From: Anisus vortex
Lineage: Eukaryota > Mollusca > Gastropoda > Planorbidae
DNA length: 64,000 bases
Assembly (NCBI GenBank): GCA_949126835.1
Contig: OX421506.1
Location: 21,035,426 to 21,099,425 of the forward strand
Direction of reading: 5' to 3'
The notes beneath the pieces were generated by a model, which did no database searches, was not told where the DNA came from, and saw only the letters and a program-made list of their open reading frames with translations. Within the stretch, counting starts at the first letter, position 1; every line of letters begins with the position of its first letter. The position numbers were made by a program, and so were the translations under genes. Below are positions 19,877 through 58,200 of the stretch, piece by piece.

Positions 19877-20002
19877 TTTGTTAAAAGTTTTCGGTGGGCT
19901 AATTGCTTTGACGATTTGGTACCGGGTCGCGAACAGACATTTGGTCATTTGGAAAACGATACAACGTTAAAATTATTGAGGTAAATTAATTAAAAGGTAG
20001 AT

Positions 20003-25238: not shown

Positions 25239-25278
25239 ATGGATCTAATAAAAATCCTCGAAAAGACCGTCTCGCCAG
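25239..25278 (+). CDS. KPNB1: KPNB1 exon 1
   Basis: Residues 1-13 ([13 protein letters not shown]), ending in phase 1 before donor GTAATG. Intron 1 is 2.7 kb. Confidence 0.93.
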
Positions 25279-31200: not shown

Positions 31201-34200
31201 GACTATATTGGACATCTACATAATTTGTCACACTTGGTACTTGTATTGAAAAAAATATTTTCTTTATATTGAAGACATGTTTTAATATTTGTGAAATCTT
31301 TTTGATAGGCTGCAGAACAGGGCCGTCCACCTGAACGCACAAGTATGTTTTATGCCAAGGGAGCCTTGCAATACCTCGTCCCAATTCTGTTGGTCACCCT
31401 TACTAAGCAGGTAATGGGCATATTAATACTAAGCTGTTATACTACATAGTTTATTAATGTGTTTGCATTCTCAAATTCTCCTTCATGTATCCGTGTATCT
31501 AGGAAGAGTATGATGATGACGATGAATGGAATCCTTGCAAAGCTGCTGGAGTTTGTCTTATGCTGTTGGCCTCTTGTTGTGAAGATGACGTAGTGTCGTT
31601 TGTTTTACCCTTTGTTAGGGACAACATCCGCAATGAAAATTGGCGCTACAGGGATGCGGCAGTGATGGCATTTGGTAAGCTTTTTCTTTCCTGTGTGCTA
31701 TTATATACTCAGACATGCCTACCGTTCCACTTTTGGCGTATTTGTTCCGCTTTTTTATTTAAAAAAAACCCACTTTGTTCTGCCGTTCTGCTTTTTACTA
31801 GTTTTGTTACGCCAAATTGGAAAGTTTTTTTTTTAAATGTTGAAATATAGTCCGTGTCTAGGTTGATAAAACAAAGGCACAAATAAAGTCACAATGCTAT
31901 AATTATCATTACTTGGGTTTTCTATTGTTTTTTTTAAAGAGATATTCTGGGCTTTTCTAACATTTTTTTTGCGGTATTACGCATGTTTGGCACTTAATCT
32001 ACTTTTCCTTTACTGTATTGCTAAGATTTGAATATATCTGCCTCAGAAAGTTTAAATATGACTTGTTCAGACTGTAAAAAAACTAATTCAGTTTTATTGG
32101 AAGGAATATTCAGAGTAGTTTATTCAGCAAAGAAAAGCATGTGAATTTAATGTTCCTTGTAGGCCTACTAGATTTAGATCCATTGCGAATTGTCTGTAAA
32201 ATGTAGTCCTACCTTACTACCTACATTTTAAATAGCTAATGTAGTTTTTTTGTTATAAAAGATTGTTAGATAAAGAGTGTTCCGCTTTTTTGTCCTTAGC
32301 GGTAGGCATGCCTGTATACTTGCTAAGAAATTACTTGGTTGAAAAGCTTAAACAATTTTTTTGATTGCAGGTTCAATATTGGAAGGACCAGATCCAGAAA
32401 AAATGAAACCTATTGTTGAGCAAGCCATGCCCATGCTTATAGAATTGCTTAAAGATCCTAGTGTGGTGGTCAGGGACACGGCTGCATGGACAGTTGGGCG
32501 TGTCTGTGAAATACTTCCTGAATCTGTACTTCATGAAACTTGTTTAACACCTCTGCTGACAGCTCTCGTGGAAGGTCTTGTTGCAGAGCCCCGTGTGGCT
32601 AGTAATGTTTGCTGGGTAATACTTGTATTCTTACATCTTTGAGTTACATTTGAGTTTCAGTATTAGTATAGATGTTTACAATTCATATTTAACATATACA
32701 AAAAACTATTTCCACAGGCTTTTTCAAGTCTTGCTGAAGCTGCGTATGAAAATGCAGAGCAGCCAGAAGATGGTACAGAGCCTGAAACTTACTGTCTTTC
32801 CAATTACTTTGAAATCATTGTAGAGAGACTGTTGCATACTGCTGACAGGTAGTTAAAATATCAAATTTCACCTATGATAATTATATCAAGTTTTACGTGC
32901 ATATTTGTATGTAAAAAAAAATTCTATTTTAGTTAATAAAGTTGGGAAAAGATTTCAAATTTTTTAAATAAGTAAAATGGGATTGGTAACCCAGAATCTA
33001 TACTTTAAAATGGATCACTATATCATTATTGATGTATTTTTTAATAGGCCTGACGGCAATCAGCATAATTTGCGAAATGCTGCCTATGAAGCTTTGATGG
33101 AATTGGTAAAGAATAGTCCCAAGGTAATTGAATTAATTCTGTCATTCCACTTTTAATAGTATTTCATTGTGTTGTAAAAAAAAATGTCAAGATTAAAGCT
33201 GATGCCACAGTTTATACAGAGCCACAATCGAAGTTACGTACAAGTTACAGTGATAGCTCTACAAACTATTTCTTTAAGCCCTTAAAGATATATTCTACAT
33301 TTGAATGTATTTTTTACTTCTTTCAGAACTGTTATTTGATAGTACAAAAAACCACTATGATTATTTTAGAAAGACTGGAAAGGGTTTTGTCTATGGAGGT
33401 AATACAATGTTTTGTTCATACTTTTGGTTTTAATATTTATGAGCTACGAAAACCTTTCTTTCTTACATGAAACATTTTTGTACTTAAGTTTTTTTTAATA
33501 TAAATATGGCTCAAAGATTTTTAAGTTCTAATATCAATGTATTGCTGCCAAAATCTGAAATTTGAAAGACAATCTCATCTGATACTACCAAGACGTGTTC
33601 TTTAACTCATTTGCTACTAACCTAGTTGCCAAAGACACCCCTGAAAATAATAGCCAAAGGGAAGGAACTCCTCGTTAAATTAAGTAAATTAATATTTTTT
33701 TAATGACTAAATATTCCCCTAAGTTAATACAAAATTACATCATAAAATAGATAAATATCTTAGCTTTATGGAAATGTATACTTTTATACATAAAAAAATG
33801 TCAATTTGTCGGTAGAATCATTCGCCGAGTGTTGAGACCCTAGGATTTGGCTAAATATTTTCACTAGCCCTAGCGTCAAAGTCAGATAAAGTATCATAAA
33901 GCCCATAAATCGAGTTGTAATGGAAGTTCATCTAAATCTATATCTGCAGCATCCTTATCAGAGCTGTTGTTAAATGTTATATTTGGAGGTATAGAATATT
34001 GATTAATAAAGTAGGCAATAAAAAAAGTACTACAAGACGAAAGATCAGTGAAAACTACCCGTACTTTGAAAGCGCATCGCAAAAAAAACAACTTTTTTTT
34101 ATCGAAACAAACTATATTCTTACTTTTTAAAAGCCGTGCTTGCAGTAAACAGAACGCATGACGAAAAATTAATAAACGACTGTAGGTTAGTCACACACGT

Positions 34201-37200
34201 GGCCGCCGCTTTTGGGCGCATTGGTACTTAGGGGGGGTATGCCGCATTCAGTCGCAATAGTTGCAAATGAGTTACCTGTGAACGTTATTTGTTATGAAAA
34301 TATTTTTGTATAGGCACTGTATGCTTTTTTTGTTGTTGTTTCTTTTATCAGGGAGCAATTCAGTCAACAAATGACAGGGTTCAATACAATGATTTACAGT
34401 CACTTTTGTGTGCCACCTTACAGGTATATGCTAAGACATCACATTTATCATTATAAACAAATTGAAGTCTTTGCTGTCTTAACAAAAAAAATTGTTTATT
34501 TTTCTACCACTGTTGGTTTCTAATTTGTATAGAGTGTACTGAGAAAGGTGACTCCTGAAGATGCACCTAAGATATCAGATCAGATAATGACTGCTCTCTT
34601 GAGAATGTTTCAGTCTACTAGTGGTAAAGCTGGTGGAGTCCAGGAAGATGCTTTGCTGGCCATGTCAACTCTTATTGAAGGTAAATTTCAAGATGCTCTT
34701 TTATAGTTCTTAGACACTTTGTTTGAAGTTTATTACTCTTTACCACTGGATATTAATGAATGTGGGTTTTTTATTATTTTTATTATTAATTTTTTTCTTT
34801 TTTCAGTTTTAGGCGATAAGTTTCAGATGTATATGGACGCATTTAAGCCATTCCTTCTACTGGGACTGAAGAATTATGAAGAATATCAGGTTTGTGTATT
34901 AATATTTATTAAATGGACAATAAGAAAAGAAAAAAAAATCAAATTTTAAATAATAATTGGAACTGATCCTGAAGGGAAAGAAATGGGTCTTAACTTTTTT
35001 TTTTGCAGACAAATCTGTTTTATACTGTCAGATCAGTTCCATCTGTTTTAATCCTTGATTTTAGGTCAAAATGTAAATTTATGTTTTGTAAAAACGTATT
35101 TTTCATATATTATGTATGCATGGTATATTTTTTCTTCTTACAAAAATTTTTTCTTAAACTGGGTGAATATAAAAGAAGTTCTATGATGATTGATATCACC
35201 GCCCCAATCTGAAATTTAAATGACTGATTGGTTTTCTTCTGAGACTTCTAACACAAATGCTTTAATTGCTTGTCACATTTATAATTAAAATATATTTTCA
35301 AAGTTAGTAGCTGGCACAATATACCTTCTTGATTGCTGAACCATTCAGCCTCCCAACTGTCCACCAACCTATCTATGACTCATTTTTGCCCAGCTAAAAC
35401 ATTTTTTTCTAAAAACTGATCCAGAAGTCTATTATGGTTTAAAAAGCTAACTTTCCATCTGTATAATTTAATTCTATAGACGTCTACTCGTGATTTTAGG
35501 GGACGATGTCAATGAACTTGCCTTTTAAAAATTTCAGCCACATTTAAGAAAGTTTTTGGCAGAGAGGATTTCATGTTTAAAAATTATTAAGGGTACTTAC
35601 TATTGGTTGTGTATGTAGTGATAACATTTTTCAGATGTTTGGCATATTTTTCTCCTTTCAATCATTTGTGTCTTTAACTGGGTAAATATAAAAGAAGTTC
35701 TATGATGATAGATGATTTTTTAAAACTGATCCTTACATCTATTATGGTTTAAAAAGCTCACTTTCCATCGGTATAATTTAATTCTATAGACGTCTACTCA
35801 TGATTTTAGGTGACAATATCAATTAACTTGCCAGTTTAAAAATTTCATAAAATTTGAGCCAAATTTAAGTCAGTTTCTGGAAGAGAGGATTTTATGTTTG
35901 AAAAATTAAATAGGGTACTTACTATTGATTGTGTATGTGGTGAAAACATTTTTCTTATGCATTACATATTTTTCTTCTTAAAATAATTTTTCTCTCAAAC
36001 TGGGTGAATATAAAAGAAGTTCTATGATGATTGATATAGCCGCCCCAGTCTGAAATTTAAATGACTGATTGGTTTTCTGAGACTTCTAACACAAATGCTT
36101 TAATTGCGTGTCACATTTATAATTAAAATATATTTTCATAGTTATTAGCTGATACTAAGTACCTTCTTGTTTGCCAAACCATGCAGGCTCCCAATTGTCC
36201 ACCAATCTACCTATCCATCTGTCTCATTTTTGCCTAGCTGTAACCTTTTTTTTTTAAAACTGATCCTGAAAGGAGGTAAAAAAGAAGATTTAAATCAATT
36301 TTTTTTTAATGTAAAAAGAACCTGAAATCTATTTTGGTTTAAAAAGCTAACTTTCTATCTGTATAATTTAATTCTATAGACGTCTACTCGTGATTTTAGG
36401 TGACGTTATCAATTAACTTGAAGTTTAAAAATTTCATAAACTTTGAGCCAAATTTAAGTCAGTTTTGGAAGAGAGGATTTCATGTTTGAAAAATTAATAA
36501 GGCAAGGGTACTTACTATTGGTTGTGTATGTAGTGAGAACATTTTTCATATGTATGGCATATTTTTCTCCTTACAATAATTTGTGTCTTTAACTGGGTAA
36601 ATATAAAAGAAGTTCTATGATGATTGATGTACTGCCCCGGTCTGAATCTTAAATGACTGATTAGTGTTCTTCTGAGACTTCTAACACAAATGCATTGATA
36701 ACATGTCCAATTTTATTGGATAGGTTATTGAATAGTTAGTTAATGGCTCGGAAAACCAACTTGACTGCCAAACCATTCAGCCACCCAATCTTCCTTGAAT
36801 CTAAATATCCATGATTAATTTTTGCTAGCTATAGCCTTTTTTTTAAAAAAAATCATCCTTAAACGAGGTGAAAAGAATATTCTAATCCAGTTTTTCTTCT
36901 TTATGTAAAAAGATCCTTACATCTATTATGGTTTAAAAAGCACACTTTCCATCTGAATAATTTAATTCTATAGACGTCTACTTATGATTTTAGGTGACTG
37001 ACAATATCAATTAACTTGCCAGTTTAAAACTTTCATAAAATTTTTAGCCAAATTTAAGTCAGTTTCTGGAAGAGAGGATTTTATGTTTGAAAAATTAAAT
37101 AAGGTACTTACTATTGATTGTGTATGTAGTGAAAACATTTTTCTTATGCATTGCATATTTTTCTTCTTAAAATAATTTTTGTCTCAATCTGGGTGAATAT

Positions 37201-40200
37201 AAAAGAAGTTCTATGATGATTGATATAGCCGCCCCAGTCTGAAATTTAAATGACTGATTGGTTTTCTGAGCCTTCTAACACAAATGCTTTAATTGCGTGT
37301 CACATTTATAATTAAAATATATTTTCATAGTTAGTAGCTGATACTAAGTACCTTCTTGTTTGCCAAACCATGCAGGCTCCTCCACCAATCTCCCTATCCA
37401 TCTGTCTCATTTTTGCCTAGCTATAACCTTTTTTTTTTAAACTGATCCTGAAAAGAGGTAAAAAAGAAGATTTAAATCAATTTTTTTTTAATGTAAAAAG
37501 AACCTGAAATCTATTCTGGTTTAAAAAGCTAACTTTCTATCTGTATAATTTAATTCTATAGACGTCTACTCGTGATTTTAGGTGACGTTATCAATTAACT
37601 TGAAGTTTAAAAATTTCATAAACTTTAAGCCAAATTTAAGTCAGTTTTTGGAAGAGAGGATTTCATGTTTGAAAAATTAATAAGGGTACTTACTATTGGT
37701 TTTGTATGTAGTGATAACATTTTTCATTTGTATGGCATATTTTTCTCCTTACAATAATTTGTGTCTTTAACTGGGTAAATATAAAAGAAGTTCTATGATG
37801 ATTGATGTACTGCCCCGGTCTGAATCTTAAATGACTGATTAGTGTTCTTCTGAGACTTCTAACACAAATGCTTTGATAACATGTCCAATTTTATTGGATA
37901 GGTTATTGAATAGTTAGTTAATGGCTCGGAAAACCAACTTGACTGCCAAACCATTCAGCCACCCAATCTTCCTTGAATCTAAATATCCATGATTAATTTT
38001 TGCTAGCTATAACCTTTTTTTTTTTAAAATCGTCCTTAAACGAGGTCAAAAGAATATTCTAATCCAGTTTTTCTTCATGTAACAAAATCCTTAGATCTTT
38101 TATATGGTTTAAAAAGCTAACTTTCCATCTGTATAATTTAATTCTATAGACATCTACTCATGACTATAATCAATGTCGATATCAATGAACTTGCCTCTTT
38201 AAAAATTTCATAAAATTTTAGTCGAATTTTGGAAGAGAAAATTTTATGTTTGAAAATTTAATAAGAGTACTTACTATTCTTTGTTTTCTTATTTTTGCCT
38301 TATATAGCAAAAACTGATTTTTCACATGCATGGTATATTTTTCGTTCTTACAGTAATTTTGTTTCTTAAACTGGGTGAATATAAAAGAAGATCTATGATG
38401 ATATACCCGCCCCAGTCTGAAATTTAAATGACTGATTGGTTTTCTGAGACTTTTAACACAAATGCTTTAATTGCGTGTCACATTTTATAATTAAAATATA
38501 TTATCATAGTTAGTAGCTGATACTAAGTACCCTCTTGTTTGCCAAACCATGCAGGCTCCCAATTGTCCACCAATCTACCTATCCGTCTCATTTTTGCCTA
38601 GCTGTGACCTTTTTTTTAAAACTGATCCTGAAAGAAGGTAAAAAAGAAGATTTAAATCAATGTTTTTTAAATCTAAAAAGATACTGAAATCTATTATGGT
38701 TTAAAAGCTAACTTTCCATCTGTATTATTTAATTCTATAGATGTAAGTTCTATGATGATTGATATAGCCGCCCCAGTCTGAAATTTAAATGACCGATAGG
38801 TTTTCTTCTGAGACGTCACGAATGCTTTGATTGCTTGTCATATTTATAATTAAAATATATTTTCAAAGTTAGTAGCTGGCACTAAATACCTTCTTGATTG
38901 CCAAACCATCCAGCCTCCCAATTGTCCACCAATCTTCCTACCCATCTATGACTCATTTTTGTCTAGCTATAACCTTTTCTTTTTTTTTAAACTGATCCTG
39001 AAAGTAGGTGAAAAGAAGATTTTAATCCAGTTTTTCTTTTTTGTGTGAAAAGATCCTTAGATCTTTTATGGTTTAAAAAGCTAACTTTCCATCTCTATAA
39101 TTTAATTCTATAGACATCTACTCATGACAATAATCAATGACGATATCAATGAACTTGCCTGTTTAAAAATTTTATAAAATTTTAGTCAGATTTTGGAAGA
39201 GAAAATTTTATGTTTCAAAATTTAATAAGAGTACTTACTATTCTTTGTTTTCTTATTTTTGCCTTATATAGCAAAAACTGATTTTTCACATGCATGGTAT
39301 ATTTTTCATTCTTGCAATAATTTTGTTTCTTAAACTGTGTGAATATAAAAGAAGATCTATGATGATATACCCGCCCCAGTCTGAAATTTAAATGACTGAT
39401 TGGTTTTCTGAGACTTCTAACACAAATGCTTTAATTGCGTGTCACATTTTATAATTAAAATATATTATCATAGTTAGTAGCTGATACTAAGTACCTTCTT
39501 GTTTGCCAAACCATGCAGGCTCCCAATTGTCCATCAATCTACCTATCCGTCTCATTTTTGCCTAGCTGTAACCTTTTTTTTTTAAACTGATCCTGAAAGG
39601 AGGTAAAAAAGAAGATTTAAATCAATGTTTTTTAAATCTAAAAAGATACTGAAATCTATTATGGTTTAAAAGCTAACTTTCCATCTGTATTATTTAATTC
39701 TATAGATGTAGGTTCTATGATGATTGATATAGCCGCCCCAGTCTGAAATTTAAATGACTGATAGGTTTTCTTCTGAGACGTCACGAATGCTTTGATTGCT
39801 TGTCATATTTATAATTAAAATATATTTTCAAAGTTAGTAGCTGGCACTAAATACCTTCTTGATTGCCAAACCATCCAGCCTCCCAATTGTCCACCAATCT
39901 TCCTACCCATCTATGACTCATTTTTGTCTAGCTATAACCTTTTCTTTTTTTTTAAACTGATCCTGAAAGTAGGTGAAAAGAAGATTTTAATCCAGTTTTT
40001 CTTTTTTGTGTGAAAAGATCCTTAGATCTTTTATGGTTTAAAAAGCTAACTTTCCATCTCTATAATTTAATTCTATAGACATCTACTCATGACAATAATC
40101 AATGACGATATCAATGAACTTGCCTGTTTAAAAATTTTATAAAATTTTAGTCAGATTTTGGAAGAGAAAATTTTATGTTTCAAAATTTAATAAGAGTACT

Positions 40201-43200
40201 TACTATTCTTTGTTTTCTTATTTTTGCCTTATATAGCAAAAACTGATTTTTCACATGCATGGTATATTTTTCATTCTTGCAATAATTTTGTTTCTTAAAC
40301 TGTGTGAATATAAAAAAAGATCTATGATGATATACCCGCCCCAGTCTGAAATTTAAATGACTGATTGGTTTTCTGAGACTTCTAACACAAATGCTTTAAT
40401 TGCGTGTCACATTTTATAATTAAAATATATTATCATAGTTAGTAGCTGATACTAAGTACCTTCTTGTTTGCCAAACCATGCAGGCTCCCAATTGTCCACC
40501 AATCTACCTCTCCGTCTCATTTTAGCCTAGCTGTAACCTTTTTTTTTTAAACTGATCCTGAAAGGAGGTAAAAAAGAAGATTTAAATCAATGTTTTTTAA
40601 ATCTAAAAAGATACTGAAATCTATTATGGTTTAAAAGCTAACTTTCCATCTGTATTATTTAATTCTATAGATGTAGGTTCTATGATGATTGATATAGCCG
40701 CCCCAGTCTGAAATTTAAATGACTGATAGGTTTTCTTCTGAGACGTCACGAATGCTTTGATTGCTTGTCATATTTATAATTAAAATATATTTTCAAAGTT
40801 AGTAGCTGGCACTAAATACCTTCTTGATTGCCAAACCATCCAGCCTCCCAATTGTCCACCAATCTTCCTATCCATCTATGACTCATTTTTGTCTAGCTAT
40901 AACCTTTTCTTTCTTTTTAAACTGATCCTGAAAGTAGGTGAAAAGAAGATTTTAATACAGTTTTTCTTTTTTGTGTAAAAAGATCCTTAGATCTTTTATG
41001 GTTTAAAAAGCTAACTTTCCATCTGTATAATTTAATTCTATAGATGTCTACTCATGATTTTAATTTTAGGTGACATTATCAATTAACTTGCATGTTTGAA
41101 AATTTCATAAACTTTGAGACAAATTTAAGTCAGTTTCTGGAAGAGAGGATTTTATGTTTGAAAAATTAAATAGGGTACTTACTATTGATTGTGTATGTAG
41201 TGAAAACATTTTTCTTATGCATTGCATATTTTTCTTCTTTAAATATTTTTTCTCTCAAACTGGGTGAATATAAAAGAAGTTCTATGATGATTGATATAGC
41301 CGCCCCAGTCTGAAATTTAAATGACTGATTGGTTTTCTTCTGAGACGTCACAAATGCTTTGATTGCGTGTCATATTTATAATAAAAATATATTTTCATAG
41401 TTAGTAGCTGGCACTAAGTACCCACTTGATTGCCAAACCATCCAGCCACCCAAACATCCACGAATCTAAATATTCATGTTTAATTTTTGCTAGCTATAAC
41501 GTTTTTTTTTTTAAACTGATCCTTAAACGAGGTGAAAAAGAAGATTTATATCAATTTTTTTTTTTAATGTAAAAAGATACTGAAATCTTCTATGGTTTAA
41601 AAGCTAACTTTCCATCTGTATAATTTAATTCTATAGATGTAAGTTCTATGATGATTGATATAGCCGCCCCAGTCTGAAATTTAAATGACTGATAGGTTTT
41701 CTTCTGAGACGTCACGAATGCTTTGATTGCTTGTCATATTTATAATTAAAATATATTTTCAAAGTTAGTAGCTGGCACTAAATACCTTCTTGATTGCCAA
41801 ACCATCCAGCCTCCCAATTGTCCACCAATCTTCCTATCCATCTATGACTCATTTTTGTCTAGCTATAACCTTTTCTTTTTTTTTAAACTGATCCTGAAAG
41901 TAGGTGAAAAGAAGATTTTAATCCAGTTTTTCTTTTTTGTGTAAAAAGATCCTTAGATCTTTCATGGTTTAAAAAGCTAACTTTCCATCTGTATAATTTA
42001 ATTCTATAGACATCTACTCATGACTATAATCAATGACGATATCAATGAACTTGCCTGTTTAAAAATTTCATAAAATTTTAGTCGAATTTTGGAAGAGAAA
42101 ATTTTATGGTTGAAAATTTAATAAGAGTACTTACTATTCTTTGTTTTCTTATTTTTGCCTTATATAGCAAAAACTGATTTTTCAAATGCATGGTACATTT
42201 TTCATTCTTACAGTAATTTTGTTTCTTAAACTGGGTGAATATAAAAGAAGATCTATGATGATATACCCGCCCCAGTCTGAAATTTAAATGACTGATTGGT
42301 TTTCTGAGACTTGTAACACAAATACTTTGATTGCATGTCACATTTTATTTTATAAAGATATTTTCATAGTTAGAAGCTGGCACTGAGCACCCACTTGATT
42401 GCCAAACCATCCAGCCACCCAAACATCCACGAATCTAAATATTCATGATTAATTTTTGCTAGCTATAACGTTTTTTTTTTTAAACTGATCCTTAAACGAG
42501 GTGAAAAAGAAGATTTAAATCAATTTTTTTTTAAATGTAAAAAGATACTGAAATCTTCTATGGTTTAAAAGCTAACTTTCTATCTGTATAATTTAATTCT
42601 ATAGATGTAAGTTCTATGATGATTGATATAGCCGCCCCAGTCTGAAATTTAAATGACTGATAGGTTTTCTTCTGAGACGTCACGAATGCTTTGATTGCTT
42701 GTCATATTTATAATTAAAATATATTTTCAAAGTTAGTAGCTGGCACTAAATACCTTCTTGATTGCCAAACCATCCAGCCTCCCAATTGTCCACCAATCTT
42801 CCTATCCATCTATGACTCATTTTTGTCTAGCTATAACCTTTTCTTTTTTTTAAACTGATCCTGAAAGTAGGTGAAAAGAAGATTTTAATCCAGTTTTTCT
42901 TTTTTGTGTAAAAAGATCCTTAGATCTTTTATGGTTTAAAAAGCTAACTTTCCATCTGTATAATTTAATTCTATAGATGTCTACTCATGATTTTAATTTT
43001 AGGTGACGTTATCAATTAACTTGCATGTTTAAAAATTTCATAAACTTTGAGACAAATTTAAGTCAGTTTCTGGAAGAGAGGATTTTATGTTTGAAAAATT
43101 AAATAGGGTACTTACTATTGATTGTGTATGTTAGTTGTAGTGAAAACTTTTTTCTTATGCATTGCATATTTTTCTTTTTTAAATATTTTTTCTCTCAAAC

Positions 43201-46200
43201 TGGGTGAATATAAAAGAAGTTCTATGATGATTGATATAGCCGCCCCAATCTGAATTTTAAATGACTGATTGGTTTTCTTCTGAGACGTCACAAATGCTTT
43301 GATTGCGTGTCATATTTATAATAAAAATATATTTTCATAGTTAGTAGCTGGCACTAAGTACCCACTTGATTGCCAAACCATCCAGCCACCCAAACATCCA
43401 CGAATCTAAATATTCATGATTAATTTTTGCTAGCTTTAAAGTTTTTTTTTAAAACTGATCCTTAAACGAAGTGAAAAAGAAGATTTATATCAATTTTTTT
43501 TTAATGTAAAAAGATACTGAAATCTATTATGGTTTCAAAGCTAACTTTCCATCTGTATTATTTAATTCTATAGACATCTACTCATGACTATAATCAATGA
43601 CGATATCAATGAACTTGCCTGTTTAAAAATTTCATAAAATTTTAGTCGAATTTTGGAAGAGAAAATTTTATGGTTGAAAATTTAATAAGAGTACTTACTA
43701 TTCTTTGTTTTCTTATTTTTGCCTTATATAGCAAAAACTGATTTTTCAAATGCATGGTACATTTTTCATTCTTACAGTAATTTTGTTTCTTAAACTGGGT
43801 GAATATAAAAGAAGATCTATGATGATATACCCGCCCCAGTCTGAAATTTAAATGACTGATTGGTTTTCTGAGACTTGTAACACAAATACTTTGATTGCAT
43901 GTCACATTTTATTTTATAAAGATATTTTCATAGTTAGAAGCTGGCACTGAGCACCCACTTGATTGCCAAACCATCCAGCCACCCAAACATCCACGAATCT
44001 AAATATTCATGATTAATTTTTGCTAGCTATAACGTTTTTTTTTTAAAACTGATCCTTAAACGAGGTGAAAAAGAAGATTTAAATCAATTTTTTTTTAAAT
44101 GTAAAAAGATACTGAAATCTTCTATGGTTTAAAAGCTAACTTTCCATCTGTATAATTTAATTCTATAGATGTAAGTTCTATGATGATTGATATAGCCGCC
44201 CCAGTCTGAAATTTAAATGACTGATAGGTTTTCTTCTGAGACGTCACGAATGCTTTGATTGCTTGTCATATTTATAATTAAAATATATTTTCAAAGTTAG
44301 TAGCTGGCACTAAATACCTTCTTGATTGCCAAACCATCCAGCCTCCCAATTGTCCACCAATCTTCCTATCCATCTATGACTCATTTTTGTCTAGCTATAA
44401 CCTTTTCTTTTTTTTAAACTGATCCTGAAAGTAGGTGAAAAGAAGATTTTAATCCAGTTTTTCTTTTTTGTGTAAAAAGATCCTTAGATCTTTTATGGTT
44501 TAAAAAGCTAACTTTCCATCTGTATAATTTAATTCTATAGATGTCTACTCATGATTTTAATTTTAGGTGACGTTATCAATTAACTTGCATGTTTAAAAAT
44601 TTCATAAACTTTGAGACAAATTTAAGTCAGTTTCTGGAAGAGAGGATTTTATGTTTGAAAATTTAAATAGGGTACTTACTATTGATTGTGTATGTAGTGA
44701 AAACATTTTTCTTATGCATTGCATATTTTTCTTCTTTAAATATTTTTTCTCTCAAACTGGGTGAATATAAAAGAAGTTCTATGATGATTGATATAGCCGC
44801 CCCAGTCTGAAATTTAAATGACTGATTGGTTTTCTTCTGAGACGTCACAAATGCTTTGATTGAGTGTCATATTTATAATAAAAATATATTTTCATAGTTA
44901 GTAGCTGGCACTAAGTACCCACTTGATTGCCAAACCATCCAGCCACCCAAACATCCACGAATCTAAATATTCATGTTTAATTTTTGCTAGCTATAACGTT
45001 TTTTTTTAAAACTGATCCTTAAACGAGGTGAAAAAGAAGATTTATATCAATTTTTTTTTTAATGTAAAAAGATACTGAAATCTTCTATGGTTTAAAATCT
45101 AACTTTCCATCTGTATAATTTAATTCTATAGATGTAAGTTCTATGATGATTGATATAGCCGCCCCAGTCTGAAATTAAAATGACTGATAGGTTTTCTTCT
45201 GAGACGTCACGAATGCTTTGATTGCTTGTCATATTTATAATTAAAATATATTTTCAAAGTTAGTAGCTGGCACTAAATACCTTCTTGATTGCCAAACCAT
45301 CCAGCCTCCCAATTGTCCACCAATCTTCCTATCCATCTATGACTCATTTTTGTCTAGCTATAACCTTTTCTTTTTTTTTAAACTGATCCTGAAAGTAGGT
45401 GAAAAGAAGATTTTAATCCAGTTTTTCTTTTTTGTGTAAAAAGATCCTTAGATCTTTCATGGTTTAAAAAGCTAACTTTCCATCTGTATAATTTAATTCT
45501 ATAGACATCTACTCATGACTATAATCAATGACGATATCAATGAACTTGCCTGTTTAAAAATTTCATAAAATTTTAGTCGAATTTTGGAAGAGAAAATTTT
45601 ATGGTTGAAAATTTAATAAGAGTACTTACTATTCTTTGTTTTCTTATTTTTGCCTTATATAGCAAAAACTGATTTTTCAAATGCATGGTACATTTTTCAT
45701 TCTTACAGTAATTTTGTTTCTTAAACTGGGTGAATATAAAAGAAGATCTATGATGATATACCCGCCCCAGTCTGAAATTTAAATGACTGATTGGTTTTCT
45801 GAGACTTGTAACACAAATACTTTGATTGCATGTCACATTTTATTTTATAAAGATATTTTCATAGTTAGAAGCTGGCACTGAGCACCCACTTGATTGCCAA
45901 ACCATCCAGCCACCCAAACATCCACGAATCTAAATATTCATGATTAATTTTTGCTAGCTATAACGTTTTTTTTTTTAAAACTGATCCTTAAACGAGGTGA
46001 AAAAGAAGATTTAAATCAATTTTTTTTTAAATGTAAAAAGATACTGAAATCTTCTATGGTTTAAAAGCTAACTTTCTATCTGTATAATTTAATTCTATAG
46101 ATGTAAGTTCTATGATGATTGATATAGCCGCCCCAGTCTGAAATTTAAATGACTGATAGGTTTTCTTCTGAGACGTCACGAATGCTTTGATTGCTTGTCA

Positions 46201-49200
46201 TATTTATAATTAAAATATATTTTCAAAGTTAGTAGCTGGCACTAAATACCTTCTTGATTGCCAAACCATCCAGCCTCCCAATTGTCCACCAATCTTCCTA
46301 TCCATCTATGACTCATTTTTGTCTAGCTATAACCTTTTCTTTTTTTTAAACTGATCCTGAAAGTAGGTGAAAAGAAGATTTTAATCCAGTTTTTCTTTTT
46401 TGTGTAAAAAGATCCTTAGATCTTTTATGGTTTAAAAAGCTAACTTTCCATCTGTATAATTTAATTCTATAGATGTCTACTCATGATTTTAATTTTAGGT
46501 GACGTTATCAATTAACTTGCATGTTTAAAAATTTCATAAACTTTGAGACAAATTTAAGTCAGTTTCTGGAAGAGAGGATTTTATGTTTGAAAAATTAAAT
46601 AGGGTACTTACTATTGATTGTGTATGTTAGTTGTAGTGAAAACTTTTTTCTTATGCATTGCATATTTTTCTTTTTTAAATATTTTTTCTCTCAAACTGGG
46701 TGAATATAAAAGAAGTTCTATGATGATTGATATAGCCGCCCCAATCTGAATTTTAAATGACTGATTGGTTTTCTTCTGAGACGTCACAAATGCTTTGATT
46801 GCGTGTCATATTTATAATAAAAATATATTTTCATAGTTAGTAGCTGGCACTAAGTACCCACTTGATTGCCAAACCATCCAGCCACCCAAACATCCACGAA
46901 TCTAAATATTCATGATTAATTTTTGCTAGCTTTAAAGTTTTTTTTTAAAACTGATCCTTAAACGAAGTGAAAAAGAAGATTTATATCAATTTTTTTTTAA
47001 TGTAAAAAGATACTGAAATCTATTATGGTTTCAAAGCTAACTTTCCATCTGTATTATTTAATTCTATAGACATCTACTCATGACTATAATCAATGACGAT
47101 ATCAATGAACTTGCCTGTTTAAAAATTTCATAAAATTTTAGTCGACTTTTGGAAGAGAAAATTTTATGTTTAAAAATTTAATAAGAGTACTTACTATTCT
47201 TTGTTTTCTTATTTTTGCCTTATATAGCAAAAACTGATTTTTCACATGCATGGTACATTTTTCATTCTTACAGTAATTTTGTTTCTTAAACTGGGTGAAT
47301 ATAAAAGAAGATCTATGATGATATACCCGCCCCAGTCTGAAATTTAAATGACTGATTGGTTTTCTGAGACTTGTAACACAAATACTTTGATTGCATGTCA
47401 CATTTTATTTTATAAAGATATTTTCATAGTTAGAAGCTGGCACTAAGCACCCACTTGATTGCCAAACCATCCAGCCACCCAAACATCCACGAATCTAAAT
47501 ATTCATGATTAATTTTTGCTAGCTATAACGTTTTTTTTTTTAAAACTGATCCTTAAACGAGGTGAAAAAGAAGATTTAAATCAATTTTTTTTTTAATGTA
47601 TAAAGATACTGAAATCTTCTGTGGTTTAAAAGCTAACTTTCCATCTGTATAATTTAATTCTATAGACATCTACTCATGACTATAATCAATGACGATATCA
47701 ATGAACTTGCCTGTTTAAAAATTTCATAAAATTTTAGTCGGATTTTGGAAGAGAAAATTTTATGTTTGAAAATTTAATAAGACTACTTACTATTCTTATT
47801 TTCTTGTTTTTGCCTTATATAGCAAAAACTGATTTTTCACATGCATGGTATATTTTTCATTCTTACAGTAATTTTGTTTCTTAAACTGGGTGAATATAAA
47901 AGAAGATCTATGATGATATACCCGCCCCAGTCTGAAATTTAAATGACTGATTGGTTTTCTGAGACTTCTAACACAAATGCTTTGATTGCGTGTCACATTT
48001 ATAATTAAAATATATTTTCATAGTTAGTAGCTGATACTAAGTACCTTCTTGTTTGCCAAACCATGCAGGCTCCCAATTGTGTAAAAAGAACCTGAAATCT
48101 ATTCTGGTTTAAAAAGCTAACTTTCCATCTGTATAATTTAATTCTATAGACGTCTACTCGTCATTTTAGGTGATGATGTCAATGAACTTGCCTTTTAAAA
48201 ATTTCAGAAACATTTAAGACAGTTTTTGGCAGAGAGGATTTCATGTTTAAAAATTAATAAGGGTACTTACTATTGGTTGTGTATGTAGTGATAACATTTT
48301 TCATATGTATGGCATAATTTTCTCCTTAGAATCATTTGTGTCTTTAACTGGGTAAATATAAAAGAAGTTCTATGATGACTTATGTACTGCCCCGGTCTGA
48401 ATTTTAAATGACTGATTAGTGTTCTTCTGAGACTTCTAACACAAATGCTTTGATAACATGTCCAATTTTATTGGAAAGGTTATTGAATAGTTAGTTAATG
48501 GCTCTGCTAACCAACTTGACTGCCAAACCATTCAGCCACCCAATCTTCCACGAATCTAAATATCCATGATTAATTTTTGCTAGCTATAACCTTTTTTTTT
48601 TTAAACTCATCCTTAAACGAGGTGAAAAGAATATTCTAATCCAGTTTTTCTTCTTTATGTAAAAAGATCCTTACATCTATTATGGTTTAAAAAGCTCACT
48701 TTCCATCTGTATAATTTATTTCTATAGACGTCTACTCATGATTTTAGGTTTCAATATCAATTAACTTGCCCGTTTAAAAATTTCATAAAATTTGAGCCAA
48801 AATTAAGTCAGTTTCTGGAAGAGAGGATTTTATGTTTGAAAAATTAAATAGGGTACTTTCTATTGATTGTGTATGTAGTGAAAACATTTTTCTTATGCAT
48901 TGCATATTTTTCTTCTTAAAATAATTTTTCTCTTAAACTGGGTGAATATAAAAGAAGTTCTATGATGATTGATATAGCCGCCCCAGTCTGAAATTTAAAT
49001 GACTGATTGGTTTTCTTCTGAGACGTCACAAATGCTTTGATTACGTGTCATATTTATAATAAAAATATATTTTCATAGTTAGTAGCTGGCACTAAATACC
49101 TTCTTGATTGCCAAACCATCCAGCCTCCCAATTGTCCACCAATCTTCCTATCCATCTATGACTCATATTTTGTCTAGCTATATATAACCTTTTCTTTTTT

Positions 49201-52200
49201 TTTAAACTGATCCTGAAAGTAGGTGAATTAATACAGTTTTTCTTTTTTGTGTAAAAAGGTCCTTAGATCTATTATGGTTTTAAAAACTAACTTTCCATCT
49301 GTATTATTTAATTCTATAGACATCTACTCATGACTATAATCAATGACGATATCAATGAACTTGCCTGTTTAAAAATTTCATACAATTTTTAGCGGATTTT
49401 GGAAGAGAAAATTTTATGTTTGAAAATTTAATAAGAGTACTTACTATTCTTGGTTTTCTTATTTTTGCCTTATATAGCAAAAACTGATTTTTAACATGCA
49501 TGGTATATTTTTCATTCTTGCAATAATTTTGTTTCTTAAACTGGGTGAATATAAAAGAAGATCTATGATGATATACCCGCCCCAGTCTGAAATTTAAATG
49601 ACTGATTGGTTTTTTGAGACTTCTAACACAAATGCTTTAATTGCTTGTCACATTAATATAATTAAAATATATTTTCATAGTAAGTAGCTGGCACTAAGTA
49701 CCTTCTTGTTTGCCAAACCATGCAGCCTCCCAATTGTCCACCAATCTACCTATCCATCTGACTCGATTTTGCCTAGCTATAACCCTTTATTTTTAAAACT
49801 GATCCTGAAAGGAGGTGAGAAAGAAGTATTTAATCAATTTTTTTTTAATGTAAAAAGATACTGAAATCTATTATGGTTTAAAAGCTAACTTTCCATCTGT
49901 ATTATTTGATTCTATACAGGGTTCCTGCGGCCTCCTAAAAATTCAGGATGACCTGAAATCCTCCTAAAATTGCAAAAAAAGTGCAAAAACTCCTCAAAAC
50001 CTCCTGAAATTTGAAATAATCTCCTGAAATGTCCTGACAAATTTTAGCTGACCCCTATTTTTTACTTCTCCAACACGTATCCCTAGTTCAACAGCCCCAT
50101 CTCCCGCGTGCGTGTTACGCTTACGCTTGCTACGCCAAGCCTATCCCTTCTCGCTTTGTGTCGGTAAAGATGGTATACATTCAGCTCTTCCTCCTCTTTC
50201 GCTCCCTCTCCCACAGTTTGGTGTATGCTAGATTACAAAATGATAAGGCCTAATGGTTAAGGACTAATGTGCCTATTTTCGCGATCTATGTTGAGAATGC
50301 CTGATCACGCTACGCTCGGCGCCTTCTAGTCTACTTGGGGTCAGCGAACCGACATATTTTGTCCAATTGATTTATTTTGAAATATATTTATATCAAAATA
50401 CACAGAAATAGGTCTTTTTATTAGTTAAAAAGAAAACGATGACGTTTAAGACGCTATCTTATATCATATGGTAAAAATTCCAGTAGGCCTATTTAGCTAG
50501 CCCGACGAGAGGAGCTATTCGCGATGTAGGCCTACTTTTCATTCTTGCAATAATTTTGTTTCTTAAACTGGGTGAATATAAAAGAAGATCTATGATGATA
50601 TACCCGCCCCAGTCTGAAATTTAAATGACTGATTGGTTTTCTGAGACTTCTAACACAAATGCTTTGATTGCGTGTCACATTTATAATTATAATATATTTT
50701 CAAAGTTAGTAGCTGGCACTAAGTACCTTCTTTATTGCCAAAGCATATTTTTCTTCTCACAATAATTTTTTTCTTTAACTGTTTGACTATAAAAGAAGTT
50801 CTGTTATGATTGATGTACTGCCCCGGTCTGAATTTTAAATGACTGATTAGTTTTCTTCTGAGACTTCTAACACAAATGCTTTAATTGCTTGTCAAATAAT
50901 ATAATTAAAATATATTTTCATAGTAAGTAGCTGGCACTAAGTACCTTCTTGTTTGCCAAACCATGCAGCCTCCCAATTGTCCACCAAGAGACCTATCCAT
51001 CTGTCTCATTTTTGCCTAGCTATAACCTTTTTTTTTTTAAACTGATCCTGAAAGGAGGTGAGAAAGAAGTATTTAATCAATTTTTTTTTAATGTAAAAAG
51101 ATACTGAAATCTATTATGGTTTAAAAGCTAACTTTCCATCTGTATAATTTAATTCTATACAGGGTTCCTGCGGCCTCCTGAAATTTCAGGATGTTTTGAA
51201 ATCCTCCTAAAATTGCAAAAAAGTGCAAAAACTCCTGAAAACCTCCTGAAATTTGAAATAATCTCCTGAAATGTCCTGACAAATTTTAGCTGACTTCTAT
51301 TTTTTACTTCTCCAACACGTATCCCTAGTTCAACAGCCCCATCTCCCGTCGAATTGATTTACCGTATATACTCGCGTATAAGTCGCACTTTTTTTACCGA
51401 AGATTTCGACGAAAAGTAGGGGTGCGACTTATACACCCGACATGGTTTTTGAAAAGTTCGAAAAACATCACTACTCTGTCATAAAGTTTCCTTCATAACC
51501 CATAGGCCTATAGATGATTGAAATGCTGAATACTGTTTTTCTGCCCCCCCTTCCACACACACACTTTTCTTTTGAACTTTCGGACCAATTTTGTTTTGCC
51601 GAAACGTGGCGTAAGTTTAAGGCGGCGTTTTTTTTTTTTTCATAGGCCTATTAAATGCACATTACAGTACGGAAGGAATCGTAAATGTGTACAAAACTGT
51701 CTAGACCTACAACGTAGCTTACGATGCGTTTTATTTAGGACCTATTGCCTCTGACTATACGTTATAGCCTACTAATAAGGCAGTGTGTAGCATTCCTGGG
51801 AAAACCGCGCTATGATTCCAAGACTACAATTGGCCGGCCGATCGACTCATTTCATTAAATTTCGGAAAAATTCTGCACTCAAACCTTTTTTTTTTAATCT
51901 TTAAATAATGCGTAAATGTCAATAGTATGTTTCATTTTTCATTTGTTGCATGTAAGAGTTGAAAAAAAAACACAGCTTATTGTCGGTGTCGCAGTGGCGT
52001 TTGTAATTATTACAAACAATGTTAATGGGAATTATGACACTTGTATAACGCGTGGTTAATACCGGCGCCGCTAAGTCTGAAATAACGCACTTTTGTAGGC
52101 ATATTGAACGCAAATATGGAAAGAATCGTAAATGTGTAAAAGCCTCTCTAGTCCTATAATATAGGTAAAAGCTTGTACACTAGTAGCTTAAGATTAGGAC

Positions 52201-55200
52201 CGAGAAAACCGCGTGCGGTGCGCCATGTCCGCATGTCCTAGCAGTGTTTCCAATAGGCCGATCGACACATTTCAAGACATTTCGGAAACATTCTGCAAAT
52301 CTATATGAAAAAATGCGTGAAATGTCAATAAAGTGTGTCATTGTTCCTTAGTTGCATGTATGAATTGAAAAAAACACAGCTTATTGTCGATGGCGAAGAC
52401 AGCACACCCTCCGAGAAGCCACCAGCACTCCCCCCTTTTTAAATATTGTTCGCGCAGTTGCTTTGAAATCATTACAAACAATGTTAATGGTAATTAGGTC
52501 ATCACTTGTATAGGGCAACTATGAATACCGGCACCACTCAGTCTAGGCTAATGATGCACATCAAAAGATTTTTTGTGTGTGTGGACCCACTATAGTGTAA
52601 CTATAGGATAGTATTTTGAGTAGGGACATGGACTTACAGACCTGCCTACTCTCCCGCATTGTGCGGGAGTTCTACGCATTTGAACCCTGTTTTCCGCTTT
52701 TACGCACACCTTTAAAATTCTTCCGCTTTTTTGTTCCCCGTCTATGGATTTTTTTTTCCGAAAATTGTTAATTTTTTTTTCCGATCGATATTTTTCCGAC
52801 ACTTGCAAAAATGCGAATCTTTTTCTGTCGAAAATCGGAACTAAAATTTATTTGCATGGACATGCGCAGTATACACATTTCCCTTTATTTTACCAACGAA
52901 TCGGCCAAAAAATGGCGGCACTTTCACTTTCTGGTCTGTGCCGGCCAAAAAAATCGGCAGATAAAAACTACGATAAAATAGCGATTTGCAATCCAATGTC
53001 TTCTAATAAATATAGTTACTTCCTTTTACTAATAAATAATCTTCCTTTTTTCGCTCTTCTGTTCTTTTTTTTTTTACATTTATTTTTACAACGATGGATG
53101 TCGAACTTGTTAGGTACTAGCAATGCAATGCCTAAGCCTATGCTAATACTATTGACTATTGTATTGAAATGGAATAAGATAGGTCATCTGGCTTACGTTA
53201 TAAATCAGTTAGGAACATTTTTAAGGCATGCTAATGCTATGTGACTCAGAAAATAATTTTGCAACTACATATGAAAGACTGTTAGTTTAAAGTTTAGATT
53301 TTGAGTAGGAAAGCTGATCCGAAGCTTCAGTCATTGACTACGTCATTCTCAAATACTGTTATTTTGCTATTAAGTTAGGCTATATCGGGAGAATTTTTTT
53401 TTTCAAATGCCCTAAATAACTGAAACCTCTATGTAAATATAATAATAAATAGTAAGTTTTCTATAAGATAAATAAAATATAAAATGGCTATTATTAAATT
53501 CCATTATAATATTTTTTTAATGACAATTAATAGGCCTATGTGCCTTTGAAAAGTGGAGTTAGGGGTTAGGGCCTAATCAAAAATTAAAACGACTTTTTCT
53601 GTCATGTGCCCCTCCTTCTATAAACTTAGAGAGGAGACAATTTCTGAGTTTTACAAGTCTGTAAGACTTTATTTTTGTAAAAAGTCTGTGAATACTTGGT
53701 GCAAAACCTGCCCTTGGATGACCAAGTCCTTGTCAATTCAGTTGTAGTCAACCTTCATGAAAGAAAGAACATAACGTCTTCCCATCTAAATTACTTCTTA
53801 GATAAGTTTCCAATGCTGATGGGGGATGCTGACAGGGATGTTATCCTTGAGCAGTTCACCAAGCTGCAGAGTAGGCTACTGACTTGGATCTGCCAGTAAA
53901 TGAACAGGTTGATCACAGCTGGACAAAGTTGTACCTCCGAGTATCCCCAACTCTCTAGTCATGAAGGGGATACTCACAATTCCCCACTCTAGCGCGCCTT
54001 GTGAGCGTATTTTTTCAATGGTCAGGAAGACCTGCACTGACCATTGCATTTGGAATGATGTTATTTCATGTAGATTAAATATTATCATATATTATGCTGC
54101 AAATGCAAACCTGTGTTTCTTTGTAACTATGATAAAATAGTTTGTGTATAATTATAATTATTAATATAATAGTATGTATTTTTGTTATGCTGCTCTAAAT
54201 CTCCCTCATCAGTTGGAAAATCTCCCACATAACTAGCCCCTGTCTTCCTCATGGGTCCTGTGGGGGGTAGGCAGGTCTGGACTTAGATGAAGAAACAGAT
54301 ATCTTACTTTCCCATATTATGACTGACTGTATTGACTGGTTGTTCAAAATAAATGAAGCGCTGCCTTTATTTGATTATGTTTGCATTATGCACAATTGAA
54401 ACCATTTTTTAAGGAAAGTTATCAAATTAGGGTGAATATTAGTAACTTTTGTTGTTTAAGGGTATGCATTTTTTGAGAAGTTAAAAGGCAGTGTAACCCC
54501 TGAAAGTCAGGGTGCGACTTATACGCGGGTCAATGACAACATATAAGAAAAAAAATCCTAAACTAGGGGTGCGACTTATACACCGGTGCGACTTATACGC
54601 GAGTATATACGGTATTTTGAAATATATTTATATCAAAATACACAGAAATAGGTATTTTTATTAGTTAAAAAGAAAACGATGACGTTTAAGACGCTATCTT
54701 ATATCATATGGTAAAAATTCCAGTAGGCCTATTTAGCTAGCCCGACGAGAGGAGCTATTCGCAATGTAGGCCTACTTTTCATTCTTACAATAATTTTGTT
54801 TCTTAAAATGGGTGATTATAAAAGAAGATCTATGATGATATACCCGCCCCAGTCTGAAATTTAAATGACTGATTGGTTTTCTGAGACTTCTAACACAAAT
54901 GCTTTGATTGCGTGTCACATTTATAATTATAATATATTTTCAAAGTTACTAGCTGGCACTAAGTACCTTCTTTATTGCCAAACCATATTTTTCTTCTCAC
55001 AATAATTTTTTTCTTTAACTGTTTGACCATAAAAGAAGTTCTGTTATGATTGATTTACTTCCCCGGTCTGAATTTTAAATGGCTGATTAGTTTTCTTCTG
55101 AGACTTCTAACACAAATGCTTTGATTGCATGTTCAATTTTTTTGGAAAGGTTATTGAATAGTTAGTTAACGGCTCTGAATAGCAACTTGACTGCCAAACC

Positions 55201-58200
55201 ATACAACCTCCCAATTGTCCACCAAGAGACCTATCCATCTATGACTAATTTTGTTTGATTTTACACTTCTGTCCTTACTTACAGATCTTTAAAAAAAAAA
55301 TTCCTTAACTAGTCCTGACACGAGGTATAAAATGAAAGATTCTAATCCAGTTTTTCTTTTTTATTATGCAAAAAGATCCTTATTTATTGGGAATTTAAAT
55401 ACACACTTGCTATCGGTATATTTTATTTCTTTAGACCTGCATCTGATTATAGATAGCTATATCAATACTTGTTCAGACATTTTATAATATTAGTGCAGAA
55501 ATACGTTTTTTTTTTTTTTCAAGGAGAGAATTTTATGTTTGAAAAATGAATAAGGGCACTATTATTTGTGTTACATTTAGCTAGCCATATGAGTATCAAA
55601 AACAATTTTTTTCACATGCGTGGTATATTGTGTCTTCTTTCCAAAAAATTTTTCTTAAATTGTGCGAAAATAAAAGAAGTTTTATGATGATATACCCGCC
55701 CCAGTCTGAAATTTAAATGACTGATTGGTTTTCTGAGACTTCTAACACAAATGCTTTTATTTTTACCTAAAATTATTTTCATTTACGCAGTATTGATTAC
55801 ATGAAAAGTTTTATTTGAAAGATTTTTTGATAGCTAGTTTCTGGCACTAATATCTCTGTATTTTCTTATACTTAGCATTGAGCTACAAGTCAAATTTGTG
55901 TTAAAAATGTTTGACACATAATCAGTAAACATTCTATTCAATGTAGATGCTCTTTTTTTCTTCAGGTTTGCTTAGCAGCAGTAGGAATAGTTGGTGATCT
56001 ATGTCGAGCCCTAAGTACCAATATATTACCACACTGTGATGAGCTCATGATGATGTTGCTAGAAAATTTAGGGGTAACTATTTCATTTTGTATTTTGTAA
56101 AACAGATGTTGTTTTTATTCCTGCTCTATTCTATAGAATATCATGCATGTGATGATTTATATCGCCCCAGTCTGATAATTATGACTGATTGATAGTCTGA
56201 TTTTCTTGTATAAAAATGACCTTAATAGAAAATGTTCCTTTTTTCTTTTATTATTAATAAAATTGTTTTTACATACTTGTGTGCAGAATGAAGGAGTCCA
56301 TAGGTCAGTGAAGCCTCAAATACTGTCTGTGTTTGGTGATATAGCTCTTGCTATCGGACCAAATTTTAAAATGTATTTAGATGTTGTCATGACTACATTG
56401 CAACAAGCTTCACAGGCACAAGTAGACAAGGTATTTCAGTTAGGGCTATTGAATTATTATTTTTTAAGCTTATGCCAATGATGAAATATTTAATAACTAA
56501 CTCTGTGTGTTTCTGATTAGTCTTTCTGAGGCCTCTTTTTGGTCTTAATTTATTTTTCTTTAAGGAAGAGAATTTATTTTTATATAAGAAACATATTTTT
56601 CTTAGACTGATTATGACATGATTGACTATCTAAATGAACTGAGAGAGGGCTGTCTAGAAGCTTATACTGGTATAGTGCAAGGACTGAAAGGAGATGCAGA
56701 TTCACCTAACGGTGAGTTTTAAATTCAATAAACAAAGTTTATTGCTGCTCTGTCTGATTAGATATTAATAAATCATGATTGGTCTCATTTCCTAATTTTT
56801 ATCTAATGTAAAAATTCAATTTGTTTTTTTTTATATGTCTAATTTTTACACCTGTTTTGTTTTTTTAATAGCTGATGTGGTTCTCATCCAACCACATGTG
56901 AACCATATTGTGTCTTTCGTTGAGCATATTGCAGTGGACGATGACAAAAGTGAAAGCAATGTGGCTGCTTGCTGTGGCCTTATTGGGTACGAGCTTTTAA
57001 ACTGTCTAGTTTTTATGCTAATACTCATGCCATTGTTGCAGTAATTATATCTGCAATTAAAACTAGGCTCTCATTTTAAAGCTATACATTTTTCTTTTAT
57101 TAGTGACCTGTGCTCTGCATTTGGAAGTAGTATGCTCCCCATGGTGGATAGAGAGAGTATAACCAATTTGCTTACTCAAGGCAGACGCAGCAAGGTGCAG
57201 AAAGCTAAAACTCTAGCCACTTGGGCCACAAAGGAAATCCGGAAGCTAAAAAATGCTGCCTCATCTTGGTCAGTTCAATTATTTCTTCTACCCAAATGAC
57301 TAAGTAAAATGCCTATGATGAAATTAATTATTGGTGAACAATGGTGTGCTTTTGATTAGTCTTTCTGAGGCAGTGCTTGTTAATAATCATCTATGTATCC
57401 ATGTTTAAAATTACAACATGCTTTTTGAAGTCAAGTTGTCCTCCATTATTTGTATTTAGGGTATTTAGACTCAAATGCTCAGCTTGTTGCTTAGTTGTTC
57501 TAAAAGAAAAATATTTCCTTTTTAGTGTGTGTGGGGGGAGGTCTTGGTACAAGCTCATAAGCATACTCCAGGTGCTTATACTTGTATGTGTTCCATATCA
57601 AATGTCTTGAAATAGTGGAAATTGAAGTATGGTTGGGGGCGTTTGTTTGTTTTTGTTATTATCCTTAACTTTGGTTCAAGTTCATACATAGAAATTTTCC
57701 CCTGTACCCTACAACACTTTTTTAAGCTTTAGCAACTATATACTGCTTTGTTGTTATAATTTATCTTTTAATTAACAGGTTTATTACGGATCATGGAATT
57801 TTGGAAAATTGATAGGACCTTTTCCAGTATAAAAAAGTTTTGGAAAAATGCATTTTGATAACTAGATCATGGAAAAGTTTTGGAATTTTTAAATTTAGAT
57901 ATTTTATTGCAATTTGCAATTTATTGCCTATACTATAGCCTATAGTTATACCATAGCGGCATAGCAGTGCATAGCCTGTCATGTTGTTCACTATTATCTA
58001 GTACTAGGTTAGCTATAGCCTATGACCATATAAGGATAGGCTATACGTTATAAGGTATAGGCTAAATATGAAGAGGCCTGTTACTAACATTTTTAGTAGG
58101 TCTATTAGTTACGAAGTATCCTACTATTTAGGCCTATTACTAGTACTAGGCCTAGGCTATAGAGCCTTTATTACAGTATTTAGCTTTGTAATTATTGATA

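Follow-up and report, generated by a model that had tools for sequence, protein, structure and literature searches.

Large tandem arrays of box C/D small nucleolar RNA (snoRNA) genes are described in a 2024 review as eutherian innovations that consist of orphan snoRNAs and lie in imprinted long non-coding RNA (lncRNA) genes, a fifth such array being found only in rat (PMC11028025). In SNHG14, the copies are spread over 29 and 48 introns with one snoRNA copy each (PMC11608373). Animal intronic snoRNAs occur predominantly one per intron and are matured by debranching and exonuclease trimming (PMC11028025). Introns holding more than one snoRNA are reported from plants, Plasmodium, and human (PMC2656528, PMC4234469), and for plants, snoRNA genes clustered within one intron are on record (PMC2656528). 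The snoRNA U31 (SNORD31) is tabulated with human 28S Gm4166, yeast snR67 Gm2619, and Arabidopsis snoR35 (PMC8817022), and Gm4166 is placed in the P-site (PMC6316459). Here we analyze a 64-kb stretch of the planorbid snail Anisus vortex (GenBank assembly GCA_949126835.1, contig OX421506.1, positions 21,035,426 to 21,099,425), called the window throughout; it is part of contig C15 of the 863-Mb assembly, and all coordinates are window positions unless another contig is named. On sequence grounds, intron 18 of its importin-beta-1 gene, KPNB1 (intron at 34890..55965, + strand, 21,076 bp), is the site of an array of 33 U31 snoRNA genes, one kind of snoRNA amplified within one importin-beta intron.

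The array comprises 33 complete tandem box C/D units, all on the + strand, with cores from 35201 to 55698. This agrees with the original prediction of about 33 tandem C/D genes in a single importin-beta intron, made from the letters of the stretch, and all of the units proved to be SNORD31: every one matched the Rfam family RF00089 (SNORD31, U31), 28 of the 33 reaching the gathering score of 40 bits and five falling short of it (39.9, 39.1, 39.1, 37.0, and 30.9 bits). On the minus strand, the core pattern had no match anywhere in the window. Since this pattern requires CCCC and box D', decayed units might escape it; a spacer-weighted query of 194 bases, about 50 of them from the 3' half of the snoRNA and the remainder from the spacer, returned 33 sites in the window that corresponded one-to-one with the 33 cores when compared by hand. 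A pattern of C/D'/D spacing matched 30 times on the + strand of intron 18 and never on its minus strand, and its one + strand match elsewhere in the window is a single U31 copy in intron 19. In 300 first-order Markov shuffles of intron 18, the same pattern gave a mean of 0.013 matches and a maximum of 1, so that the intron scores better than its shuffled self, as had been expected of it; a tighter spacing pattern gave 17 matches against 0.010 in shuffles. Together with the Rfam E-values, the 300 shuffles rule out chance motifs as the source of the units. A dispersed mobile element is likewise ruled out, as the spacer-weighted query of the whole assembly led only to intron 18 and one intron of eEF2 (at least 35 matches, 33 in intron 18 and 2 in eEF2, with 33 of 33 first-look candidates scored). 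The array could conceivably be an assembly collapse or artefact, but it sits within a 36-Mb contig and intron 18 contains no N.

The units fall into several types. Copies 1 (35176..35247, 44.8 bits, guide CCGCCCCAAT), 2 (36017..36085, 44.6 bits), and 4 (37205..37275, 43.3 bits) head the array together with variant V at copies 3 (36610..36680, 39.1 bits) and 5 (37788..37858, 39.1 bits); V recurs at copy 26 (48365..48435, 42.1 bits). The V guide, CTGCCCCGGT in copy 3, forms a longer duplex with the target that includes two wobble pairs. Type B is represented by copies 7 (38745..38816, 41.5 bits, box C' ATGACCGA), 9 (39710..39781, 43.5 bits), 11 (40675..40746, 43.5 bits), 13 (41641..41712, 44.7 bits), 15 (42609..42680, 44.7 bits), 18 (44173..44244, 44.7 bits), 20 (45136..45207, 44.8 bits, the top score in the array), and 22 (46105..46176, 44.7 bits). 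Type C is found at copies 12 (41277..41348, 43.9 bits, with a weak outer stem), 16 (43217..43288, 40.1 bits), 19 (44774..44845, 43.9 bits), 23 (46713..46784, 40.1 bits), and 27 (48955..49026, 43.9 bits), of which copies 16 and 23 carry the same guide as copy 1. The short type S includes copies 6 (38388..38453, 39.9 bits), 8 (39352..39419, 40.5 bits), 10 (40317..40384, 40.5 bits, with the weakest outer stem), 14 (42248..42313), 17 (43812..43877), 21 (45743..45808), and 24 (47308..47373), these last four at 40.8 bits each, as well as copies 25 (47903..47970, 40.5 bits), 28 (49558..49625, 41.3 bits), 29 (50585..50652, 40.5 bits), 31 (54825..54892, 40.5 bits), and 33 (55677..55741, 40.7 bits), the last of the array, about 230 nt upstream of the 3' splice site. 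Finally, a V' pair is formed by copy 30 (50796..50866, 37.0 bits) and copy 32 (55036..55106, 30.9 bits), the latter the most decayed unit, with box C, guide, and C' all altered. A half copy at 35702..35708 (+ strand), read in the sequence as box C and its upstream flank only, would be a 34th.

The box sequences are well kept. Box D' is CTGA in all 33 units, box C is ATGATGA in 31 (GTTATGA at 50820 and 55060, the V' pair), and box D is CTGA in 32 (TTGA at 49579, in copy 28), so that the motifs first described for every unit hold apart from these three exceptions. Box C', compared in 27 units, reads ATGACTGA in all but one. Two classes of C-to-D spacing, 56 or 53, had been proposed; the distance between the first base of box C and the last base of box D falls into four classes, of 53, 57, 59, and 60 nt, in 12, 2, 5, and 14 copies, respectively. 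The AGAAG/CTTCT outer stem (−4.9 kcal/mol or better), originally said to close units often, is present in 14 of 33 units and is not general: eight units have an alternative 5-bp outer pairing instead (−5.4; GATGT/ACGTC as read by eye, at a distance from box C), and the stem is weak, at −3.4 or weaker, in another 11.

The D' guide was scored against the P-loop target, which was afterwards located in this genome. With G-U pairs allowed, 10 of 10 positions are paired in 29 of the 33 units and 9 of 10 in the other four, and the base to be modified, the fifth from D', is paired in all 33 guides. The target, ACTGGGGCGGTACATCTG, has exactly one occurrence in this genome, within an isolated fragment of large-subunit (LSU) rRNA, about 400 bases long, that contains the full P-loop (L014, 1328-1724, minus strand). 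A full rDNA was not found, nor was a second exact copy of an 18-base P-loop pattern in the assembly, which therefore seems to lack the rDNA array. In E. coli 23S rRNA, the identical 10-mer begins at position 2247 and its fifth base is G2251, which we take to be methylated and part of the P-loop.

We next consider how the units have changed relative to one another. Boxes and guide were anchored, a tree was built from the spacers alone, and changes were counted by parsimony. The main test used the 27 of 33 units with a long spacer, leaving out those at 47924, 50606, 50820, 54846, 55060, and 55698, the V' pair among them. Six changes were counted at the 33 functional sites (boxes C, D', C', and D plus the D' guide) against 205 at 228 spacer sites, and a count as low as that of the functional sites was reached in none of 196 spacer windows and none of 20,000 site draws. 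The D' guide itself had four changes at 10 sites, none confined to one unit, and the ten bases preceding box D had 15 changes, partly from length differences. Broader sets with shorter spacers gave 6 functional changes versus 66 at 101 spacer sites (28 units), 14 versus 80 at 96 (32 units), and 14 versus 60 at 46 (all 33 units). When 582 windows along 18 long segments were compared, the quietest was the snoRNA of the downstream unit, with the upstream snoRNA 38 windows from the lowest. From these comparisons, we take the boxes and the D' guide to have been constrained over the history of the family.

Judged from its units, the array grew, recently, as a 0.36-0.6 kb unit and blocks of several units were duplicated repeatedly. 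Identity between adjacent blocks is 99.5% for those of 965 bp and 99.8% for those of 2167 bp, so many copies are very young, while other units are far more divergent. A repeat inserted close to the 3' end of the array was duplicated as well (95-98% identity in three comparisons). Foreign inserts lie at 49918-50535 and at 51160-54770, parts of which recur in both; the second, of about 3.6 kb, carries ACTCGCGTATAAGTCGCAC at one of its ends and the inverted motif at the opposite one.

U31 is also present outside the array. The single copy in intron 19 (56142..56206, + strand) has the top Rfam score, 50.9 bits, and its box D ends 86 nt from the 3' splice site. Among the first 30 matches listed, it resembles the array from box C to box D only, apart from two weak matches (E 0.012 and 0.51), which implies that the snoRNA outlasted its flanks. 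Amplification of one snoRNA in a housekeeping host was part of the original prediction and is borne out, whereas the identity of the snoRNA as U31 and this single copy had both been missed. A decayed U31 lies in intron 9 (29673..29748, + strand, core at 29700; 20.6 bits, a partial match), with box C ATGATTA, box D CTAA, and one guide mismatch. Beyond the window, an Rfam search in which 61 of 154,675 candidates were scored found at least two more U31, both on contig C1, and the spacer-weighted query of the assembly found the same two units and no further site among its scored candidates. The pair lies at C1:67603880-67604840 (L011, minus strand, ~5440-4480), in sense orientation between eEF2 exons; the eEF2 exon (46 residues) was identified by PDB comparison, and Pfam gave no families. 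In one of these units, the D' guide ends in AGA and C' is ATGAATGA. The pair begins with TAAACTGG and ends with TTCTTAA, and both ends meet at a single point of the unit. This fits whole-unit insertion, and we infer that a whole number of units was inserted, for example from an excised circle.

What might such an array do? We favor, with moderate confidence, a U31 dosage array whose copies are released by endonuclease over a passenger satellite and, after that, over a giant sno-lncRNA. The array copies would be transcribed within the host pre-mRNA, and each bound unit would be able to form a C/D small nucleolar ribonucleoprotein (snoRNP). Its D' guide would pair with the 28S P-loop, ACUGGGGCGG, and direct 2'-O-methylation five bases from D', at the equivalent of human Gm4166, yeast Gm2619, and E. 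coli G2251. To carry 33 units in one intron, where one is usual, predicts either endonucleolytic release or giant sno-lncRNAs. As exonuclease trimming frees only the two outermost snoRNA ends, the inner copies would need to be released by endonuclease cuts in the spacers, like those of plant clusters. In this way, the array would add to the U31 dose supplied by the standard one-copy gene of intron 19. The sense orientation of the eEF2 pair was counted as support for the array as a source of guides. The copies probably differ in output, with about one-third having weak outer stems and the V' copies decaying.

Several observations weigh against this interpretation. The weak outer stems of 11 units are one. 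Another is that an unanchored alignment gave 16 changes at the 33 functional sites, with one of 176 slid masks as low; the excess arises because box C is misaligned there. The remaining points are those expected of a passenger satellite, in which unequal crossing-over would have spread a U31-bearing unit whose copies mostly go unmatured, the intron-19 gene doing the work and the quiet boxes reflecting a few constrained seed copies. The youth of many copies, as told by the 965-bp and 2167-bp blocks, and the decay of the V' copies both suit such an origin. Changes confined to single units, which are the newest, gave a mixed result, with 0.007, 0.32, 0.39, and 0 of draws as low, and constraint on each present copy is therefore less certain than constraint over the history of the family. 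Furthermore, the 18 long segments hold a block outside the snoRNA, GCTAACTTTCCATCTGTATAATTTAATTCTATAG, that is nearly as quiet. Distances to the 3' splice site are also poor for splicing-linked processing: the best distance is given as about 70 nt (PMC1821038), and the inner copies lie kilobases away and the last copy about 230 nt away. With the intron-19 copy at 86 nt, intron 19 alone might supply U31. Nevertheless, the low rate of change is restricted to the boxes and the D' guide and is absent from the ten bases before box D. Because these bases lie within the same 60 nt and are not quiet, tract copying alone would not yield the pattern. The core is moreover retained in all 33 units recovered by the spacer-weighted search. 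We regard a passenger satellite as unlikely, although it is the strongest of the competing explanations.

An improbable alternative is that trimming occurs at the ends only and leaves RNAs as long as about 20 kb, with a U31 snoRNP at either end and up to 31 more inside, that would sequester C/D proteins or scaffold them and would not serve as a set of individual guides. Two snoRNAs in an intron can leave one such sno-lncRNA after end trimming (PMC11028025, PMC4234469), and the failure to find unit-by-unit splice sites is in keeping with it. However, a scaffold would depend on the K-turn boxes but could do without the D' guide, which is nonetheless quiet too. Least credible of all is that each unit forms its own small intron between unannotated exons in the style of the SNORD115/116 hosts: donor-like sites are in excess (36 versus 22.7 expected, with AGG|GTACTT occurring 10 times and GAT|GTAAGT 6 times) and a conserved CTAAC...TATAG block resembles a branch point and 3' splice site, but acceptors are at chance level (27 versus 24.0 expected) and consensus scoring of the sequence of intron 18 found no donor/acceptor pair that recurs per unit. 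The block in question is a second quiet region about 350 nt 3' of each snoRNA in the long units, for example at 41008-41044, where a branch-point-like CTAAC motif is followed by TATAG.

The host gene, KPNB1, spans 25239..62035 on the + strand of the window; reading by eye gave 24 exons. Exons 1-23 are coding and join into an open reading frame (ORF) of 878 codons, and all 23 introns are of the GT...AG form; exon 24, past the stop codon, is probably 3' untranslated region (UTR). Among the best 120 of 2211 protein matches, the top one is the importin subunit beta-1 of Biomphalaria glabrata (97% identity over 98%), with those ranked next being from other gastropods, and PDB importin beta aligned end to end with the product (876 of 876). 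Excluding intron 18, 20 of the 22 introns are shorter than 2 kb. A second C/D candidate lies in intron 20 (56478..56529, + strand), its box D ending 76 nt from the 3' splice site, and matches no Rfam family at cut-off. Its sister, in putative intron 23 or the 3' UTR (57315..57368, + strand), has the same D guide and scores 27.5 bits with snoU54, below the cut-off of 35. This common D guide, TGATTAGTCTTT, is complementary to 28S AAAGACTAATC, which we take to be a target, possibly the U38 site. The putative last intron also contains, at 58405-60414 on the minus strand, a 669-codon ORF, judged by eye to encode a non-LTR (LINE-type) reverse transcriptase. Upstream of KPNB1 lie two repeats, a 26-bp satellite with 146 copies and one of 50 bp with 16 (10759-14532 and 19075-19877), and an ARAGORN scan of the whole window found no tRNA.

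As to its snoRNA, the array is closest to U31/SNORD31 itself, including yeast snR67 and Arabidopsis snoR35, with the same boxes, D' guide, and target, and with RF00089 reached at cut-off by 28 of 33 units and by the intron-19 copy. It differs from U31 elsewhere in having 33 tandem copies in a single intron and in the V guides, whose duplex is longer. The Drosophila mfl (Nop60B) gene, with its DmSnR60 cluster, likewise harbors several isoforms of a single C/D snoRNA that guides rRNA, although the four copies there each occupy an intron of their own, at about 70 nt from its 3' splice site (PMC1821038). Plant and Plasmodium intronic clusters likewise place more than one snoRNA in an intron, but the P. 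falciparum case is one of two snoRNAs (PMC2656528), whereas here there are 33 of one kind. For sno-lncRNAs, the prerequisite is at least two snoRNAs in one intron (PMC4234469). Intron 18 has 33 such modules, with about 20.5 kb between the outer copies.

A likeness to the imprinted mammalian SNORD arrays had been drawn from the outset, and it stands only as regards tandem C/D amplification. SNORD113/114, SNORD115/116, and rat Bsr share with this locus a large local tandem amplification of C/D genes, block duplication, and subtypes (PMC11028025). Those arrays consist of orphan snoRNAs in the repeated introns of lncRNA genes (PMC11028025), whereas the units here are of a canonical rRNA guide with a target and sit in a single intron of a protein-coding host. 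Among the features of the SNORD115/116 type, tandem C/D genes were found here, and repeated introns and exons (by consensus scoring of splice sites), an orphan guide, and a non-coding host were not. Among the literature matches listed, which cover few subscription journals, there was no one-intron array of a canonical guide and none in a mollusc or in importin beta, in line with the early remark that no such array was known from KPNB1.

With the array, one can ask directly whether the methylation level of a single rRNA base is set by copy number, and also how an animal cell could free 33 snoRNAs from one intron when the rule is one. More broadly, we tentatively propose, while considering it somewhat doubtful, that the intron is a many-copy snoRNA cassette. 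Dozens of selected copies of a canonical guide would occupy one protein-coding intron and, whether freed by endonuclease or kept as a 20-kb sno-lncRNA, would raise the dose of a guide to the P-loop of the peptidyl transferase center. The 2024 review suggests that understudied genomes might hold further arrays (PMC11028025); the mollusc array is such a case, and its guide has a known, universal target. If the cassette proposal is true, it would mean that large tandem C/D arrays have arisen a second time, independently, outside mammals and with a snoRNA that is not an orphan.

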